Below, in pieces: positions 1,010 through 13,537 of a stretch of 16,411 bases of DNA. How positions within the stretch are numbered: the first letter of the stretch is position 1; every line of letters starts with the position of its first letter. Origin of the DNA: Gammaproteobacteria bacterium (GTDB taxonomy: Bacteria; Pseudomonadota; Gammaproteobacteria; Xanthomonadales; Xanthomonadaceae); contig JAAZHF010000062.1 in the NCBI GenBank assembly GCA_012510865.1, positions 1 through 16,411 of the forward strand. Reading direction: 5' to 3'. The notes under the pieces are model-generated. The model saw nothing but the letters and a program-made list of their open reading frames with translations, did no database searches and had not been told where the DNA came from. The position numbers and the translations under genes are program-made.

Positions 1010-1033
1010 GGCATCAACCGGGATTCGGGACTT

Positions 1034-4074: not shown

Positions 4075-4509
4075 CTAGCGGCCCGCCTCGGCCGGGCGGC
4101 TGATCAGGCTGACGCGGTCGATCCCGGCGGCGTTCACCGCGTCCAGCGCGTCCATCACCAACTGGTAGCTCGCGGTGCGGTCGCCGTTGACCAGCACCAC
4201 CGCGTCGGGGTTCTGGTTGTGGATGGCGCGCAGCCGGGTGGTCAGGTCCTCGCGCGTCACCGACACGTTCTCCCCCTCGTACACCAGCGCCAGCGCGCCG
4301 TCGGGGTAGACGCTGACCACCAGCGGATCCTTCGGCGTCTCCAGCGAGCGCGCGCTCGAGTCGGGCAGGTTGATGTCGGTGCCCAGGTTCATCAGCGGCG
4401 CGGTCACCATGAAGATGATCAACAGCACCAGCATCACGTCGATGTAGGGCACGACGTTGATCTCGTTCTTGAGCTGGCGGCGCTTGCCGCGGCGGCTGCG
4501 GACGGCCAT
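4075..4509 (-). CDS. tolR: TolR, proton-channel subunit of the Tol motor
   Basis: ExbD/TolR-family inner-membrane protein that forms the proton path with TolQ. The 144-residue product has a basic cytoplasmic N-terminus (RSRRGKRRQLKNEINVVPYI). One membrane helix follows (about 20-42, DVMLVLLIIFMVTAPLMNL) with the conserved essential Asp24 (Asp23 in E. coli), then a periplasmic domain ending VSLISRPAEAGR. The start at ATG 4509 lies 4 bp after the tolQ stop, with GAGG in the tolQ tail as ribosome binding site. The frame is open further upstream, but that region overlaps tolQ and gives no TolR-like sequence. The stop TAG is immediately followed by the tolA ATG. Confidence 0.97.
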   Translation of the reverse strand: MAVRSRRGKRRQLKNEINVVPYIDVMLVLLIIFMVTAPLMNLGTDINLPDSSARSLETPKDPLVVSVYPDGALALVYEGENVSVTREDLTTRLRAIHNQNPDAVVLVNGDRTASYQLVMDALDAVNAAGIDRVSLISRPAEAGR

Positions 4510-4513
4510 CGGC

Positions 4514-5317
4514 TCAGGCCTCGCCGGCAGAGGACTGGCGCTCCAGGATCGAGGAGAACTCCTCGGAGAAGGCATCGTAGCGGCCGGCCACGCGCTCGAC
4601 CTTGGTCGCGAAGCGGTTGTAGGCCCAGACCGCGGGAATCGCCGCGAACAGGCCCATCGCGGTCGCGACCAGGGCCTCGGAGATGCCCGGGGCGACGCTG
4701 GCGATGGTCGCCTCCCTCACGTTGGCCAGGCCGTGGAAGGCGATCATGATCCCCCACACCGTTCCCAGCAGGCCCACGTAGGGCGCGATCGAGCCGACGT
4801 TGGCCAGGAACTCCAGGTTGTGCTCGAGCCCGTCGAGCTCGCGGGAGCTGGCGACGCGCATGCCGCGCTGGGCGCCCTCGAGCTGGGCCCTGCTGTCGCC
4901 GCCACGGCGCTGCCGGCTGCGGCTGAACTCGCGGAAGCCCGCCTCGAAGATCGCCTCCAGGCCCTCGATGTCGCGGTTGCGCTCGCTGGCGGCGGCATAC
5001 AGCTTGCCGAGGTCGGCGCCCGACCAGAAGCGTTCCTCGAACCGGTCCGCTTCCCGCTCGGCGCGATCGAGCATGCGCTTCTTGCGGAAGATGATCACCC
5101 AGGACGCGACCGACGCGAACAGCAGCACCAGCATGACCAGCTGCACCGGGGTCGAGGCGTGCAGGACCAGCTGGATGATGTCGAGCTCACCGCCGCCGGC
5201 GGGGAGTCCCGACGCCTGGCCGGCGGCATCGGCGGCCAGCGCCACGGCGTCGGCGGGCGCCTCCTCCGGCAGGGGTTCGACGCTGCTTGCCTGCATCAGG
5301 ATCGCCGTTGCACTCAT
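4514..5317 (-). CDS. tolQ: TolQ, MotA/TolQ/ExbB proton-channel protein
   Basis: Inner-membrane motor subunit that, with TolR, uses the proton gradient to energise TolA. The 267 residues include a long Ala/Glu-rich N-terminal extension (about 1-45; E. coli TolQ is about 230 residues). Three membrane helices follow: about 50-77 (VMLVLLFASVASWVIIF), about 168-192 (IAPYVGLLGTVWGIMIAF) and about 203-226 (ISEALVATAMGLFAAIPAVW). A large cytoplasmic loop lies between the first two. The ATG at 5317 directly abuts the ybgC stop (TAG|ATG), with GGAG 9 nt upstream. A second Met at residue 8 is an alternative start. Confidence 0.97.
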   Translation of the reverse strand: MSATAILMQASSVEPLPEEAPADAVALAADAAGQASGLPAGGGELDIIQLVLHASTPVQLVMLVLLFASVASWVIIFRKKRMLDRAEREADRFEERFWSGADLGKLYAAASERNRDIEGLEAIFEAGFREFSRSRQRRGGDSRAQLEGAQRGMRVASSRELDGLEHNLEFLANVGSIAPYVGLLGTVWGIMIAFHGLANVREATIASVAPGISEALVATAMGLFAAIPAVWAYNRFATKVERVAGRYDAFSEEFSSILERQSSAGEA

Positions 5318-6902: not shown

Positions 6903-7556
6903 TCAGTGCGGGGACGGCAGGCCGGGGCTCGCTGCGGCCGGACCGGCCTGGACGCCCTGCGGGATCCCGGTCATGTCGGGGAGCCGGTGGGCGATGCCCT
7001 TGTGGCAGTCGATGCAGGTGGCCTCGCCGGTGGCCAGGTAGCTGCGGTGGATGAAGGCCGCGCGGCTGGCCTGGCGGGTCAGGTCCATCGAGTCGTAGGC
7101 GTGGCAGTTGCGGCACTCGAGCGAGTCGTTCGCCTTCAGGCGGTCCCATTCGTGCTGGGCCAGGACCAGGCGGTTGTCGAGGAACTTCTCGCGGGTGTCG
7201 ATGGTGCGGAAGATCTTGCCCCAGACCTCCTTCGAGGCCTGCATCTTGCGCGCCATCTTGTCGGTCCAGTCGTGCGGAACGTGGCAGTCCGGGCAGGTCG
7301 CGCGCACGCCCGAGCGGTTGCTGTAGTGGATCGTGGGCTTCAGCTCCTCGAAGACGTTGGCCTCCATCTCGTGGCAACTGGTGCAGAAGGCCTCGGTGTT
7401 GGTGGCCTCCAGCGCGGTGTTGAACCCGCCCCAGAACACGATGCCCGCGATGAAGCCGCCCAGGGTCAGGAAGCCCAGGCTCAGGTGCCGGGCCGGACGG
7501 TTGAACCGGCGCCAGAAGCCCGCGGCGGCGGCGCGCATCCGATGCCAGGCCCTCAC
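6903..7556 (-). CDS. napC: NapC, membrane-anchored tetraheme c-type cytochrome (quinol dehydrogenase)
   Basis: NapC/NirT-family protein that oxidises quinol at the cytoplasmic membrane and passes electrons to NapAB. The 217-residue product has one N-terminal membrane helix (about 25-45, [20 protein letters not shown]). Its four heme-binding motifs are CTSCH (58-62), CPDCH (88-92), CRNCH and CIDCH. Other family blocks are present, e.g. [19 protein letters not shown] and [14 protein letters not shown] chose GTG 7556, which overlaps the napB stop as GTGA and has GGAG 8 nt upstream. ATG 7538 would give 211 residues but with poor spacing. The C-terminal Pro/Ala/Gly tail of about 20 residues is longer than in E. 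coli. It is the last nap gene, followed by a REP pair. Confidence 0.95.
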
Positions 7557-8083
7557 TGCGCGCGCTCCGAACGCAGCACCTCGTCGATGTCCTTGAAACC
7601 GTTGGCGACCAGCGGCCGGGCATCGGTCTGGGTCACGTGGCACTGGACGCAGAAGTAGCGCCGCGGGGACACCTCGGCCAGGAACTGGTCGTCGCGGTCC
7701 ATGTAGTGGGTCACGCTGACCGGCGGCGCCTGGAACTCCGCGGCGGTGCCGCGCGCGTGGCAGAGCATGCAGCGGTTCGAGTTCAGGTCGACCTGGTAGC
7801 CGTCGATGCTGTGCGGGATCGTCGGCGGCTGCATCGGGTAGGCGCGCTCGCGGGTGCGGTCGAAGTTCTCCACCCGCGCCATCGGCAGCGGGGTGATCTC
7901 GACGTCGACCGGCACGTGGCGGCGGAGCGCGTCGAGCTCCTGCGCCGGGTTGCCGCGGGCGCTGATCGGGGGCGCGGGCCGCTTGACCTCCGGCTCCGGA
8001 TCACCGCCGCCGCAGGCCGCGAGCGACAGCGCCAGCGCGAGGCCGGCAAGCAGGCACGTGACGGGCTTCATGGCTTGGCGCAT
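7553..8083 (-). CDS. napB: NapB, diheme cytochrome c subunit of periplasmic nitrate reductase
   Basis: Electron-transfer subunit of the NapAB complex. The 176 residues carry two heme motifs, CMLCH and CVQCH. Conserved blocks are [31 protein letters not shown] and [12 protein letters not shown], matching E. coli NapB closely in order and spacing. The N-terminus is [20 protein letters not shown] followed by LAACGGGD. It has a basic n-region, a hydrophobic core and a textbook lipobox LAAC with Cys24, so this copy may be a lipoprotein rather than soluble in the periplasm, which is not typical of the family. ATG 8083 has GGAG 6 nt upstream and lies 1 base after the napA stop; the ATG at 8071 is an alternative. 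Its end overlaps napC. Confidence 0.96.
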
Positions 8084-8084
8084 C

Positions 8085-8357
8085 TCAGGCTCCCACCGCG
8101 ACGACCTTGGCCGCGCACTTCTTGAAGTCGGTCTGCTTGGAGATCGGATCGGTGGCGTCCAGCGTCACCTTGTTGATCAGCTGCGCGGCGTCGTACCAGG
8201 GCACGAAGATCACTCCCCGCGGCATCCGGTTGCGGCCGCGGGTCTCGACCCGGGTGCGCATCGCGCCGCGGATCGAGGAGACCTCGACTTCGTCGCCGCG
8301 CTTGAGGCCGCGTGCGCGGGCGGCGTCCGGATGCATGTAGACCTCTGCGGACGGCAC
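8085..8357 (-). CDS. Downstream NapA C-terminal fragment, possible reinitiated ORF
   Basis: A GTG at 8357 lies one codon after the internal TAG (TAG GCA GTG) in the same frame as napA. It opens a 90-residue reading frame: [20 protein letters not shown] ... [20 protein letters not shown] ... to [12 protein letters not shown]. This is the end of the molybdopterin-dinucleotide-binding domain of NapA, complete to its normal C-terminus. A GGAG lies 12 nt before the GTG, a long but not impossible spacing, so translational restart is conceivable. The fragment has no signal peptide and would stay in the cytoplasm unless it joined the main chain before Tat export. A separate product is speculative; it is simply the 3' part of napA by sequence. 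Confidence 0.35.
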
Positions 8358-8360
8358 TGC

Positions 8361-8363
8361 CTA
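8361..8363 (-). other. Premature in-frame TAG codon in napA
   Basis: The minus-strand sequence reads CCG GAG CTG TAC TAG GCA GTG CCG (Pro-Glu-Leu-Tyr-stop-Ala-Val-Pro). Homology to NapA continues in the same frame on both sides. A CAG (Gln) to TAG transition would explain it with one base. TAG also ends ybgC, tolR, napE, kup and the methyltransferase in this window, so TAG is an ordinary stop codon here. Confidence 0.93.
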
Positions 8364-10579
8364 GTACAGCTCCGGGATGCGCATGGTGATCGAGCCGGAA
8401 TGCCAGTTCTCGAGCACGCGCCCGGTGACCAGCCACAGGTCGTACTCGTCGTTTGGCGACTCCGCGGGCGGTTCGTAGGGCAGCGCCCAGATCACCGCGC
8501 GGCCATCGGGATTGCCGTAGAACTCGAAGCCGGAGCCGGGCTTCACGTATGGATCGGACCCTTCCCGGTAGCGCCACAGGGTCTCCTTGCCGTCCACCAC
8601 CGGCCAGCGCAGGCCGCGCTCCTGGTGGTAGCGATCGAAGGGCGCGAGGTCATGGGCGTGCCCCCGACCGAACTCGGCGTACTCCTCGAACAGGCCCTTC
8701 TGCACGTAGAAGCCGAAGGCCTCGGCCTCGTGGTTGGCGTAGCCCTCCTCGATGTCGGACACCGGGAACGCATCGACCTTGCCATTGCGGTACAGCACGT
8801 CGAACAGCGTCCTGCCGCGGAACTCCGGGTTGGCCGCCAGGATCTCCTCGGGCCAGCACTCGTCGGTGGTGAAGCGCTTGGAAAACTCCATCAGCTGCCA
8901 CAGGTCGGATTTCGCCTCGCCGGGCGCATCCACCAGCTGGTGCCAGAAATGCGTGCGGCGCTCGGCGTTCCCGTAGGCGCCCTCCTTCTCCACCCACATC
9001 GCCGCCGGCAGCACCAGGTCGGCCGCCTGGCAGGTCACCGTCGGGTACGCGTCGGACACCACGATGAAGTTGTCCGGGTTGCGGTATCCGGGCCAGCCCT
9101 CCTCGAGGATGTTGGCGCCGGCCTGCATGTTGTTGTTGACCTGGACCCAGTAGGCGTTGAGCTTGCCGTCCTTGAGCGCGCGGTTCTGCTCGACCGCGTG
9201 GTAGCCGGCCTTGTCCTTGATGATCCCGCGCGGGATCCTCCAGATGTCCTCGGCCATCGCCCGGTGCCCGGGATCGGTCACCACCATGTCGGCCGGCAGG
9301 CGGTGGCTGAAGGTGCCGACCTCGCGCGCGGTGCCGCAGGCCGAGGGCTGCCCGGTGAGCGAGAACGGGCTGTTGCCCGGCGTGGCGATCTTCCCCGTCA
9401 GCAGGTGGATGTTGTAGACCATGTTGTTGGCCCAGGTGCCGCGCGTGTGCTGGTTGAAGCCCATGGTCCAGAAGGACATCACCTTGGTGCCCGGGTCCGC
9501 ATAGAGTTCGGCCAGCTTCTCCAGCCAGCCGCGCTCCACGCCGGTCATCTCCACCGCCTTCTCCAGCGTGTACGGCGCGACGAAGCGCGCGAACTCGTCG
9601 AAGGTGATCGGCGTGCCGCCGTTGGGGTCGTCGGCGTTCCTGGCCGCGACCTGCAGCGGATGCTCGGGGCGCAGGCTGTAGCCGATGTCGTCGTTGCCGC
9701 GCTTGAAGGTGGTGTGCCTGTCGACGAACTCGCGGTTGACCCTGCCCGACCGGATGATGTGGTTGGCGATGTAGTTCAGGATCACCAGGTCCGTCTGCGG
9801 CTTGAACACCATCGGGATGTCGGCGAGGTCGAAGCTGCGGTGCTCGAAGGTCGACAGCACCGCGACCTTGACGTGCGGATTGGACAGCCGGCGGTCCGTG
9901 ACCCGGGTCCAGAGGATCGGGTGCATCTCGGCCATGTTCGAGCCCCAGAGCACGAAGGCGTCGGCGGCCTCGATGTCGTCGTAGCAGCCCATCGGCTCGT
10001 CCATGCCGAAGGTGCGCATGAAGCCGGTGACCGCCGAGGCCATGCAGTGCCTCGCGTTCGGGTCGATGTGGTTGCTGCGGAAGCCGGCCTTCATCAGCTT
10101 GTTGGCCGCGTAGCCCTCCCACACCGTCCACTGGCCGGAGCCGAACATGCCGATGCCGTCGCCGCCCTTGGCCTTCAGCACCGCCTTGAACTTCTCCTCC
10201 ATCACGTCGAAGGCCTCGTCCCAGCTGACCGGGGTGAAGTCGCCTTCCTTGTCGTAGACGCCGTTCTTCTTGCGCAGCAGCGGCGTGGTCAGGCGGTCCG
10301 CGCCGTACATCACCTTGGACAGGAAGTAGCCCTTGACGCAGTTGAGCCCGCGGTTGACCTCGGCCTTCACGTCGCCGTGGGTCGCCACCACGCGGCCGCC
10401 GCGCACGGCCACGTTGATGCCGCAGCCGGTCCCGCAGTAGCGGCACGGCGCCTTGCTCCACTTCAGCCCCTGCCCTCTCTCGGACACGGCCTCGGCCACG
10501 TGGCCGGGCACCGGCAGGCCGGCGGCGACGGCGGCGCTTGCGATGGCGCTGTTGCGGATGAATTCGCGGCGGGTGGTGC

Positions 10580-10882
10580 TCATCCGTGGGACTCCTGTGG
10601 ATCGGACGCGGGGACGTCGCCGTGCGGCTCCTGCCGCTCGACGTGGTGGTAGACGAGGTTGACCGTGATCACTCCCGGCAGCGCCTGCAGCAGGTCGATG
10701 CTGTCCATCAGGCCGAGGGTGCCGTCGGTTTCCTGCACGAGCACGCTGCAGGTGTCCTCCTGCAGGGCGAGTTCCAGCCCGGGGGCGGCGGCGACGGCCC
10801 CGGCCAGCGCCGGGATCGCCTCGCGGTGGTGGCGGACGACGAGGCTGGCCACGTGCCACTCTCGGGGCGCGTCATGCGACAA
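10580..10882 (-). CDS. napD: NapD, chaperone for the NapA Tat signal peptide
   Basis: Small cytoplasmic protein that binds the NapA twin-arginine signal and guards its maturation and export. The 100-residue product contains [20 protein letters not shown], then [19 protein letters not shown] and [15 protein letters not shown]. These match E. coli NapD blocks (VCSLVV ... VLAVSLVYHQ). No ATG fits. The TTG at 10882 has GGAGG 6 nt upstream and overlaps the end of napF by 11 bp, so TTG is the likely start. The reading frame is open far upstream, but that part is out-of-frame napF sequence. The stop overlaps the napA start (ATGA). The tail from about residue 82 is polar and probably disordered. Confidence 0.92.
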
Positions 10883-11393
10883 CGGGCACCTCCGCGGAAG
10901 CGCCGGCGATGGTGATCGCGGACGTGGGGCAGGCGCCGACGCAGCCGCCGCAGCCGGTGCAGCGGTCGGCGGCGACCTGCGGCCGCGCGACCGGGAGCGC
11001 GGGGGGGAAGCGGATCGCGGATTCGCCGCAGGCATCGCGGCAGCTCCAGCACACGACGCCGGCGCCAGCCAGGCAGGCGTCCCCGATCCACGCCCGGAGC
11101 GCCCACGGACGGCCGGTCGGCGCGACGAAGGCGCCCTCGCCGCAGGCCGCGGCGCAGTCGCCGCAGAAGGTGCATTCGCCGCGCGCGGGATCGAACTCCG
11201 GGAAGCCACCGCCGCCGCGCACCAGCACCGCGGGCGGGCAGGCTTCGGCGCAGGCGTTGCAGGCCGTGCAGGCCGCGGTGAAGCCGGCCTCGTCGCGCGC
11301 CCACGGCGGGCGCAGCAGCGGCGTCGCGCGTGCGCGGCCCGCGAGCAGCGCCCTGCGCGAACGGTCCGGAACGCCAATCCTGGAACGACCCAT
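10872..11393 (-). CDS. napF: NapF, ferredoxin-type iron-sulfur accessory protein
   Basis: Cytoplasmic Fe-S protein that interacts with NapA and is thought to help in its maturation. The 173 residues match NapF along their length. An N-terminal SRRALLAGR is followed by RPPWARDE. The cluster motifs are CTACNACAEACP (43-54), CTFCGDCAAAC (75-85), Cys108 with CWSCRDAC (116-123), and CTGCGGCVGACP (146-157). These would serve up to four 4Fe-4S clusters. ATG 11393 lies 7 bp after the napE stop, with AGGG just upstream. It overlaps napD by 11 bp. The residues ahead of SRRALL are a few more than in E. coli NapF, with no nearer start. Confidence 0.95.
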   Translation of the reverse strand: MGRSRIGVPDRSRRALLAGRARATPLLRPPWARDEAGFTAACTACNACAEACPPAVLVRGGGGFPEFDPARGECTFCGDCAAACGEGAFVAPTGRPWALRAWIGDACLAGAGVVCWSCRDACGESAIRFPPALPVARPQVAADRCTGCGGCVGACPTSAITIAGASAEVPVVA

Positions 11394-11400
11394 GCCGGCC

Positions 11401-11562
11401 CTATGCCGTCGGCGGGCCGGTGAAGAGCATCTGCGAGATCCAGACCGCGAATCCGTAGCCGCCGACGATCATCACCGACAGCAGCGGGAACAGCACCACG
11501 GTGATGAAGAGGAAAAGCAGGAGCTCACCCCTCCTGCCTGATTGGACGGTCTCCGCATCCAT
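11401..11562 (-). CDS. napE: NapE, small single-helix membrane protein of the nap cluster
   Basis: A 53-residue gene. ATG 11562 is preceded by GGAG at a 6-nt spacing, and it ends in TAG at 11403-11401. The protein starts MDAETVQSGRRGELLLF and has one membrane helix (about 14-42). The helix includes LFITVVLFPLLSVMIVGGYG, and the strongly conserved NapE tail GGYGFAVWISQM follows (E. coli-type NapE has VVGGYGFAVWMYQ). The function of NapE is not established; it is found at the head of nap operons. It lies 7 bp before napF and 32 bp after the flavin oxidoreductase gene, with no clear promoter in between. Confidence 0.93.
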   Translation of the reverse strand: MDAETVQSGRRGELLLFLFITVVLFPLLSVMIVGGYGFAVWISQMLFTGPPTA

Positions 11563-11594: not shown

Positions 11595-12608
11595 TTAGCC
11601 GCGATCGCCCTCCGCGGCCACCGGCAGCGATGCGCAGGCGCGCGCCGCCATGGCGAACGAGTGCAGCCGGGCCTGGTGGTCATGGATGTTGGCGGTGAGG
11701 ATCAGCTCGTCGGGACGGTGCCTGGCGACGAAGTCCGCGATGCCGGCGCGCAGGGTCGCCTCGTCGCCGATCACCGAGCAGGCTAGGGCCGCGTCCACCA
11801 TCGCGCGCTCCTGCGGCGTGCAGTGGGCGTCGATGTCGTCCACCGGCGGCGGCACCAGTCCGATCTCGCCGCGGCGCAGGCGCACGAAGGTCTGCTGCAT
11901 GGTCGTGAACAATCGGCGCGCCTCGGCGTCGGAGTCGGCGCCGACCACGTTGAGGGCGAGCATCGCGTACGGCGCGGCGAGCCGGTCCGAGGGACGGAAC
12001 TCGTGGCGGTACAGCGCCAGCGCCTGCTCCATCATCGCCGGGGCGAAGTGCGAGGCGAAGGCGAAGGGAAGGCCCATCGCCGCGGCCAGGCGGGCGCTGA
12101 AGAGGCTCGAACCGAGCAGCCACACCGGCACCTCGAGTCCCGCGCCGGGCACGGCCTGGACCTTCTGCCCCGGCCTCACCGGCGCGAAGTAGGCCAGCAG
12201 CTCGCCGACATCGTGGGGGAAGGCGTCGGCGGCGTCGTAGTAGCGGCGCAGCGCGCGCACCGTCGCCTGGTCGGTGCCCGGAGCGCGCCCGAGGCCGAGG
12301 TCGATCCGGTCCGGGTACAGCGTGGCCAGGGTGCCGAACTGCTCGGCCACCTGCAGCGGGGAATGGTTGGGAAGCATCACCCCGCCGGCGCCCACGCGGA
12401 TGGTCGACGTGCCGCCGGCGATGTGCCCGATCAGCACCGCGGTCGCCGCGCTGGCGATCCCCGGCATGTTGTGGTGCTCGGCCAGCCAGAATCGCCGGTA
12501 GCCGAGGCGTTCGGCGTGGCGCGCCAGGTCGAGGCTGTTGGCGAAGGCCTGGGCCGTGGTGCTGCCTTCGCAGACCGGGGCGAGGTCGAGCAGGGAACAG
12601 GGGATCAT
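11595..12608 (-). CDS. LLM-class flavin-dependent oxidoreductase (MsnO8/YhbW-like)
   Basis: Bacterial-luciferase-like flavoprotein of 337 residues, predicted TIM barrel that uses reduced FMN and oxygen; the substrate is unknown. Family blocks include [20 protein letters not shown] (about 38-57), [20 protein letters not shown] (about 73-92), [17 protein letters not shown] (about 97-113) and [20 protein letters not shown]. The last is typical of the MsnO8 group of the LLM superfamily. ATG 12608 is the first good start, with GGAG 4 nt upstream; the frame is open beyond it but enters the divergent promoter region. It ends only 32 bp before napE on the same strand, so it may be co-transcribed with the nap genes, though such a monooxygenase has no known role in nitrate reduction. 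Confidence 0.9.
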
Positions 12609-12766
12609 GGGAGCTCCGGACAGGGGACGGGTCGATCCAGATATGGGGCCACGTACCGGGCTTGCCAGCCCGCCCACGGCGTGCCGCGGCCCGGTGGTGT
12701 CCGATCGTCGCCGGGGCCCGCGTTGCAAGTGCGCAGGGGAGCCACGCCACCCGAGGACACGCGACA
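12609..12766. promoter_or_regulatory. Divergent intergenic region between the LLM/nap genes and the methyltransferase
   Basis: This 158-bp gap separates two divergent genes, so it should hold both promoters. It contains an inverted repeat CGGGCT-TGCC-AGCCCG at 12657-12672, a possible operator or hairpin. On the minus strand, TGGCAA is followed 17 bp later by ATATCT just before the LLM gene, a weak sigma-70-like pair. I found no FNR-type TTGAT-N4-ATCAA site and no clear NarP/NarL heptamers. It is the longest non-coding gap beside the nap cluster. Confidence 0.4.
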
Positions 12767-13537
12767 ATGCTGAGCGCCGAGCCCATCGAACTGCCCGGAT
12801 CCGGGCATGCCGGCCCCAAGATCGCAGTCGAGAACTACCGCACGCTGGGCCCCACCGGCATCGGCACCGAGCAATACCGGGGACTCGGCGTCTTCGCCTA
12901 TCCAGGGCTCCACGCCTCCTGCGCCGACCGCCTGCGCGAGCGGGTCCCGCCCGGGGCGGAGGTCCTCGAACTGGGCGCCGGGAGCGGCGCCATGAGCCTC
13001 CGGCTCGCCGACCTGGGCTACCGGCCCACGGCCGTGGACATCCTCGAGGAGAACTTCCAGGCCGGCGACCGGGCACGCTTCGTCACCGCCGACCTCAACG
13101 GCGACTTCGCCCGCGGCCTCGGCCGGTTCACCGCGGTGATGGCGCTGGAGATCATCGAGCACCTCGAGAACCCGCGGCATTTCCTGCGCCAGGCGCGCGC
13201 CTGCATGGAGACCGGGGGACACCTCGTGCTCAGCACGCCCAACCTGTCCAACCCGCTGTCGCGCGTGCAGTTCATGGTCGACGGGACCTACCAGTGGTTC
13301 CAGGACCGCAACTACGAAGGCATCGGCCACATCACGCCGCTCTCGCCCTGGCTGCTCGCGCACTGCTTCCAGGACTGCGGACTGGAGCCGGCCTGGATCG
13401 GCAGCTTCGGCGACGTCGGCAAGAACCTCGTCGGCTGGCCGCGCATGCGCTGGCTGGTGCGGATGATGCGGCCGCTGTCGCGGATCCCGCGCGACCTCGA
13501 CGGCGAGATCTACGTCGCCGTGCTGCGCGCGGTCTAG
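12767..13537 (+). CDS. Class I SAM-dependent methyltransferase
   Basis: The only plus-strand gene. Its 256 residues contain the SAM-binding motif [20 protein letters not shown] (66-85) followed by AVDILEEN, where the acidic residue should hold the ribose. Next come [17 protein letters not shown] (about 126-142) and [19 protein letters not shown]. The later block [11 protein letters not shown] is seen in methyltransferases (Methyltransf_23 type) linked to surface polysaccharides or UbiG-like enzymes. The substrate cannot be told. ATG 12767 has GAGGA 9 nt upstream and gives a sensible N-terminus; the longer frame from 12662 is not needed. It diverges from the LLM/nap genes and converges on kup, with the two stop codons sharing the same CTAG. 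Confidence 0.88.

Follow-up and report, generated by a model that had tools for sequence, protein, structure and literature searches.

A single in-frame TAG in napA of a Luteimonas-related draft genome is most likely an assembly error

The stretch of DNA analysed here (the window) is contig C293 at its full length of 16,411 bases. It belongs to a draft bin of 469 contigs totalling 2,671,254 bases, with a completeness of 90.99% and a contamination of 4.71%; the closest named relatives are Luteimonas. The window carries a set of nap genes on the minus strand:

11401 to 11562, minus strand: napE-like open reading frame of 53 amino acids, intact
10872 to 11393, minus strand: napF, intact
10580 to 10855, minus strand: napD, open, its start codon not settled
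10583 to 8085, minus strand: napA, whole frame (740 codons, TAG, 91 codons, TGA)
8361 to 10583, minus strand: napA 5' part, 740 amino acids, ending at the TAG at 8363 to 8361
8322 to 8408, minus strand: napA codons 726–754, with the stop and four private residue changes (726, 732, 747 and 754)
8363 to 8361, minus strand: the in-frame TAG, codon 741 of napA
8085 to 8360, minus strand: napA 3' part, the remaining Molydop_binding sequence, 91 codons plus TGA in an unchanged frame
7553 to 8083, minus strand: napB, intact
6903 to 7643, minus strand: napC, intact

The napE-like frame is named from its position and hydrophobic sequence rather than from a family search. Reading of the frames confirms what the first-pass annotation had described: napA is interrupted by a single in-frame TAG at codon 741 and continues in frame to a TGA, and the napE-like frame, napF, napD, napB and napC are all open. 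Homology does extend across the stop in one frame, as had also been claimed, since in the NapA model TIGR01706 (830 positions) the first piece aligns to positions 3–740 and the second follows on at 743–829. The 740-residue piece alone scores 1388.4 bits, above the curated cut-off of 930.55. It contains the Tat signal, the 4Fe-4S domain (PF04879), the molybdopterin domain (PF00384) and the first 25 codons of Molydop_binding (PF01568), which lies mostly in the second piece, so that the domain order is that of NapA. The PF01568 match spans codons 716–824 and the TAG is its 26th codon. In the sequence as given, NapA is therefore not encoded by a single uninterrupted reading frame.

Two other parts of the window deserve mention. 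Between nap and kup (11595–13537) lie a monooxygenase-like gene on the minus strand and a methyltransferase-like gene on the plus strand, both named by reading rather than by family search; the former is unmatched in relative L119, and in L117 it is matched over 30 residues only. The product of tolR (4075–4575, minus strand) is 82% identical to that of L117 and 58–62% identical to those of the close relatives L115, L116, L119 and L038, and that of the adjoining tolQ is 89–92% identical to its relatives. Possibly tolR is a recombined gene.

We compared napA with 103 napA loci, 23 found via a search for relatives and 80 taken from named genome contigs; six further loci (L029–L034), which are other enzymes or fragments, were left out of the napA counts, and 100 distinct sequences remained after three duplicates were dropped. 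None of the 103 loci has a stop in napA. At codon 741 the relatives have a sense residue, as the first-pass annotation expected, and in the 100 distinct sequences it is basic in 96 (Arg 51, Lys 45, Ser 2, Gln 2). Identity is 87–93% to 16 of the 17 same-genus loci (L006–L022) and 83% to L022, with lengths about equal. The Tat signal, the domains and the nap neighbours are common to this locus and to the nap operons of Luteimonas and other Xanthomonadales; what sets it apart from Xanthomonadales NapA is one TAG with four clustered private residues, found in this assembly only. Elsewhere in the set, the napA of genome G060 (L028) departs from otherwise invariant columns at four codons lying within a stretch of 30 (636, 640, 645 and 663), without a stop.

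The interrupted frame could in principle encode a two-chain NapA, made of the 740-residue piece and a 90-residue domain IV piece starting at GTG 8357. This GTG is the first start-like codon of the 3' part, lies one codon past the stop and has a GGAG 12 bases upstream. A separate domain IV chain also has a parallel in the FwdB/FwdD pair of tungsten formylmethanofuran dehydrogenase, in which Molydop_binding resides on its own subunit, and the napA tail piece matches FwdD weakly (26.3 bits against a cut-off of 175). FwdD, however, carries the whole Molydop_binding domain, whereas napA is broken inside that domain rather than at its border, and the 90-residue piece would itself lack a Tat signal. 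A split is likewise found in none of the 103 loci and in none of 120 listed representatives of protein clusters. In that comparison, 8000 candidates were scored against the 740-residue piece and at least 7954 matched; the 120 listed among these are 828–850 residues long, at most 94% identical and never near 740 residues, in a database clustered at 90% identity whose clusters could hide a shorter member. With the break off the domain border and the split not kept in relatives, we consider a two-chain enzyme extremely improbable.

Separate proteins of fitting length that match the NapA tail do exist (837, with 120 listed). Many come from short contigs and could be incomplete genes; we let these proteins weigh on neither side of the split-enzyme question. 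Many of those listed are exactly 99 residues long (e.g., P0128 and P0218), some of them on long contigs; these may be partial gene calls that begin at a conserved Met near codon 734.

The first-pass annotation saw no other decay in napA, and this part of its description does not hold. Codons 726, 732 and 754 break columns that are invariant in all 100 distinct relatives, and codon 747 encodes a residue present in none of them. Codon 303 likewise breaks a column invariant in the 100, which brings the invariant-column breaks to four (303, 726, 732 and 754), whereas none of the 17 same-genus loci L006–L022 has more than one; more distant napA loci have up to six (L028). The total of private residues is only slightly above that of congeners (seven here, 0–6 in 13 of 14). 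When the events counted were the stop and the six private residues whose columns do not vary among 18 Luteimonas-type loci, five of the seven fell inside 29 codons (scan by simulation, P = 1.6e-4, for a stretch picked post hoc). A dense burst of wrong bases was expected around the stop, but in a 90-base-window scan for dense private nucleotides the 12 top-ranking windows did not include the napA site. The cluster is thus one of residue changes and not of all bases.

Selection on the tail was assessed from dN/dS. For the nearest two relatives the values are 0.06 and 0.05 in the tail and 0.13 for both in the part preceding it; across 19 comparisons they range from 0.05 to 0.22 in the tail and from 0.09 to 0.22 in the preceding part. 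This shows that the tail is under purifying selection comparable to that on the remainder of the gene.

These observations bear on whether the organism has genuinely lost the enzyme. A very recent nonsense mutation would have inactivated napA, since the cofactor would not be held without the last 91 residues, and periplasmic nitrate reduction would be lost; the neighbouring changes would then be early decay, or would have arrived in one event with the nonsense mutation. The four broken invariant columns speak for such a loss, as does the lack of a second NapA-like gene in the assembly, where the best match scores 1978 bits and the runner-up 44. Truncation of napA is known in nature: a premature napA stop is reported to make Yersinia pestis strains of biovar Medievalis (MED) nitrate-negative (PMC12445494). 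The likeness to our case is the premature stop itself. In Y. pestis the stop is reported to mark a lineage and to match a phenotype (PMC12445494), whereas here it occurs in one draft in which rpoB has a stop as well. Decay that follows a stop should moreover spread over the whole gene, yet five of the seven events lie within 29 codons, and the remaining nap genes and the remainder of napA look constrained. A real loss would also leave the rpoB stop without explanation. We therefore regard it as a possible but unlikely reading of the locus.

The rpoB stop and a third interrupted gene lie on other contigs of the assembly:

Contig C231 (locus L225), bases 1945 to 1947: in-frame TAG in rpoB, residue 402 of the aligned frame
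Contig C124 (locus L170), bases 1024 to 1026, minus strand: in-frame TGA in the gene of a WYL-type regulator, residue 179

The assembly contains a single rpoB match, and its frame continues past the TAG to the contig end. Compared with 13 same-genus genomes (the partial loci L226 and L227 were left out), this rpoB departs at 22 columns that are invariant among them, the stop and 21 others, whereas those genomes depart at 0–7. Seven of the changes fall at columns invariant in all 21 relatives compared. We found no clustering of the rpoB changes (P = 0.25). A cell whose sole RNA polymerase beta subunit is truncated and altered at many sites is not viable, and therefore either the assembly has bases foreign to the organism or the bin mixes organisms.

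The WYL gene has an open frame of at least 327 codons in all 24 other same-genus genomes searched. In an alignment with 19 relatives, none has a stop at the residue-179 column, and one (L193) has a stop elsewhere. Changes at invariant columns in this comparison fall at 148, 180 and 182, two of the three within three codons of the stop, and against six relatives radical changes are found at 99, 180 and 200. The 90-base windows at the WYL stop were under the 95% limit. Since the per-gene count for contig C124 took in wrong-frame open reading frames, only its WYL rows were used.

We also looked for same-frame stops in a non-random sample of 254,472 bases, made up of the window and 20 previously searched contigs, with frameshifts outside the scope of the search. 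Of 13 candidates, three are inside the window; two of these, in the tol region, are gene borders and the third is napA. Six of the other ten were scanned with Pfam (both pieces of four, the downstream piece of two) and four were judged by eye from their residues; only the WYL gene is truly interrupted. A sample of 179,109 bases from relatives gave 11 same-frame candidates and was not used as a control.

The kind of private nucleotide change was examined in a pool of napA (14 relatives; L015, L020, L021 and L022 left out), rpoB (13 relatives) and carB (14 relatives, all of the same genus and without the partial L251). Of the private changes, 46 of 86 are nonsynonymous here and 195 of 651 in the relatives (Fisher P = 2.5e-5). 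Taken singly, rpoB gives a strong excess (21/38 against 49/214, P = 1e-4), napA a modest one (14/24 against 64/192, P = 0.02) and carB no significant one (11/24 against 82/245, P = 0.26), and rpoB is thus the main carrier of the pooled signal. Without napA the pool still shows the excess (32/62 against 131/459, P = 4e-4). Removal of L019 and L250, one locus each from two further fragmented assemblies, lowers the relatives' count to 143/556 (P = 7.5e-7). Both have many residue changes (16 in napA, 15 in carB), which fits draft quality as a cause, although L019 may simply be more distant.

With TAG interrupting two conserved frames, one of them the essential rpoB, and with downstream conservation kept in both, the codon might be recoded, or an amber suppressor might decode it, with full-length NapA and RpoB as the products. 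TAG is nevertheless an ordinary stop here, as the first-pass annotation had argued: the 132 coding-like frames of the 254-kb sample end in TGA (111), TAG (17, the napA one included) or TAA (4). RF1 is present, as its N-terminal part at a contig end, so neither its loss nor a retirement of TAG as a normal stop was found. None of the 34 tRNA matches in the assembly has the anticodon CTA; this absence is weak evidence because tRNAs for Phe, Tyr, Trp and Ile are missing from the set too. The third gene, WYL, is interrupted by TGA instead of TAG, and the two TAG columns differ in the residue type of the relatives, basic in napA and acidic in rpoB. Recoding or readthrough is accordingly very improbable. 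The same holds for its variant in which an efficient suppressor tRNA is encoded in the missing part of the assembly; amber codons would then be tolerated in both NapA and the RNA polymerase beta subunit, with TAG still a minor stop.

Of the three options that the first-pass annotation left side by side, sequencing error is the best supported, mainly because rpoB has a like in-frame TAG; a recent loss is possible, and readthrough or a split enzyme found no positive support. In an assembly that has bases foreign to its organism, or a bin that mixes organisms, a base error becomes the best reading of the napA TAG as well, and the napA stop does sit amid changes at otherwise invariant residues. 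The 103 stop-free napA loci, the purifying selection on the tail, the interrupted WYL gene, the pooled nonsynonymous excess and the fragmented bin also speak for it. Several results weigh against this reading. The 90-base scan showed no dense patch at napA, the private-residue count of napA is close to that of congeners, carB alone gives no significant excess, and the WYL gene has radical changes far from its stop (99 and 200). In-frame stops are uncommon in the assembly, with none in its 36 ABC_tran, 13 ACR_tran and 16 TonB-receptor matches, and carB is open. At 4.71% contamination, moreover, the rpoB contig may derive from a different strain or species; in that case rpoB would say less about the napA contig. 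On balance, we think that the napA TAG is probably a base-level error of a fragmented draft assembly. A real and recent loss of Nap ranks second, and recoding or a split enzyme is unlikely. The errors may have arisen when low-coverage or mixed-strain reads were sequenced, assembled or binned. We found no literature on premature stops or errors in metagenome-assembled genomes, and do not claim that none is in print.

Our analysis carries a caution for draft genomes, in that a clean in-frame stop in a conserved gene mimics a pseudogene or recoding as long as no essential gene from that assembly has been checked; rpoB is that control here. Were the napA stop real, the strain would retain the rest of its nap genes, but nitrate reduction by NapA would not be expected. 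Judged from sequence, the TAG is most likely an assembly error and not new biology, and the organism in nature most likely carries napA without interruption and has a functional Nap system.
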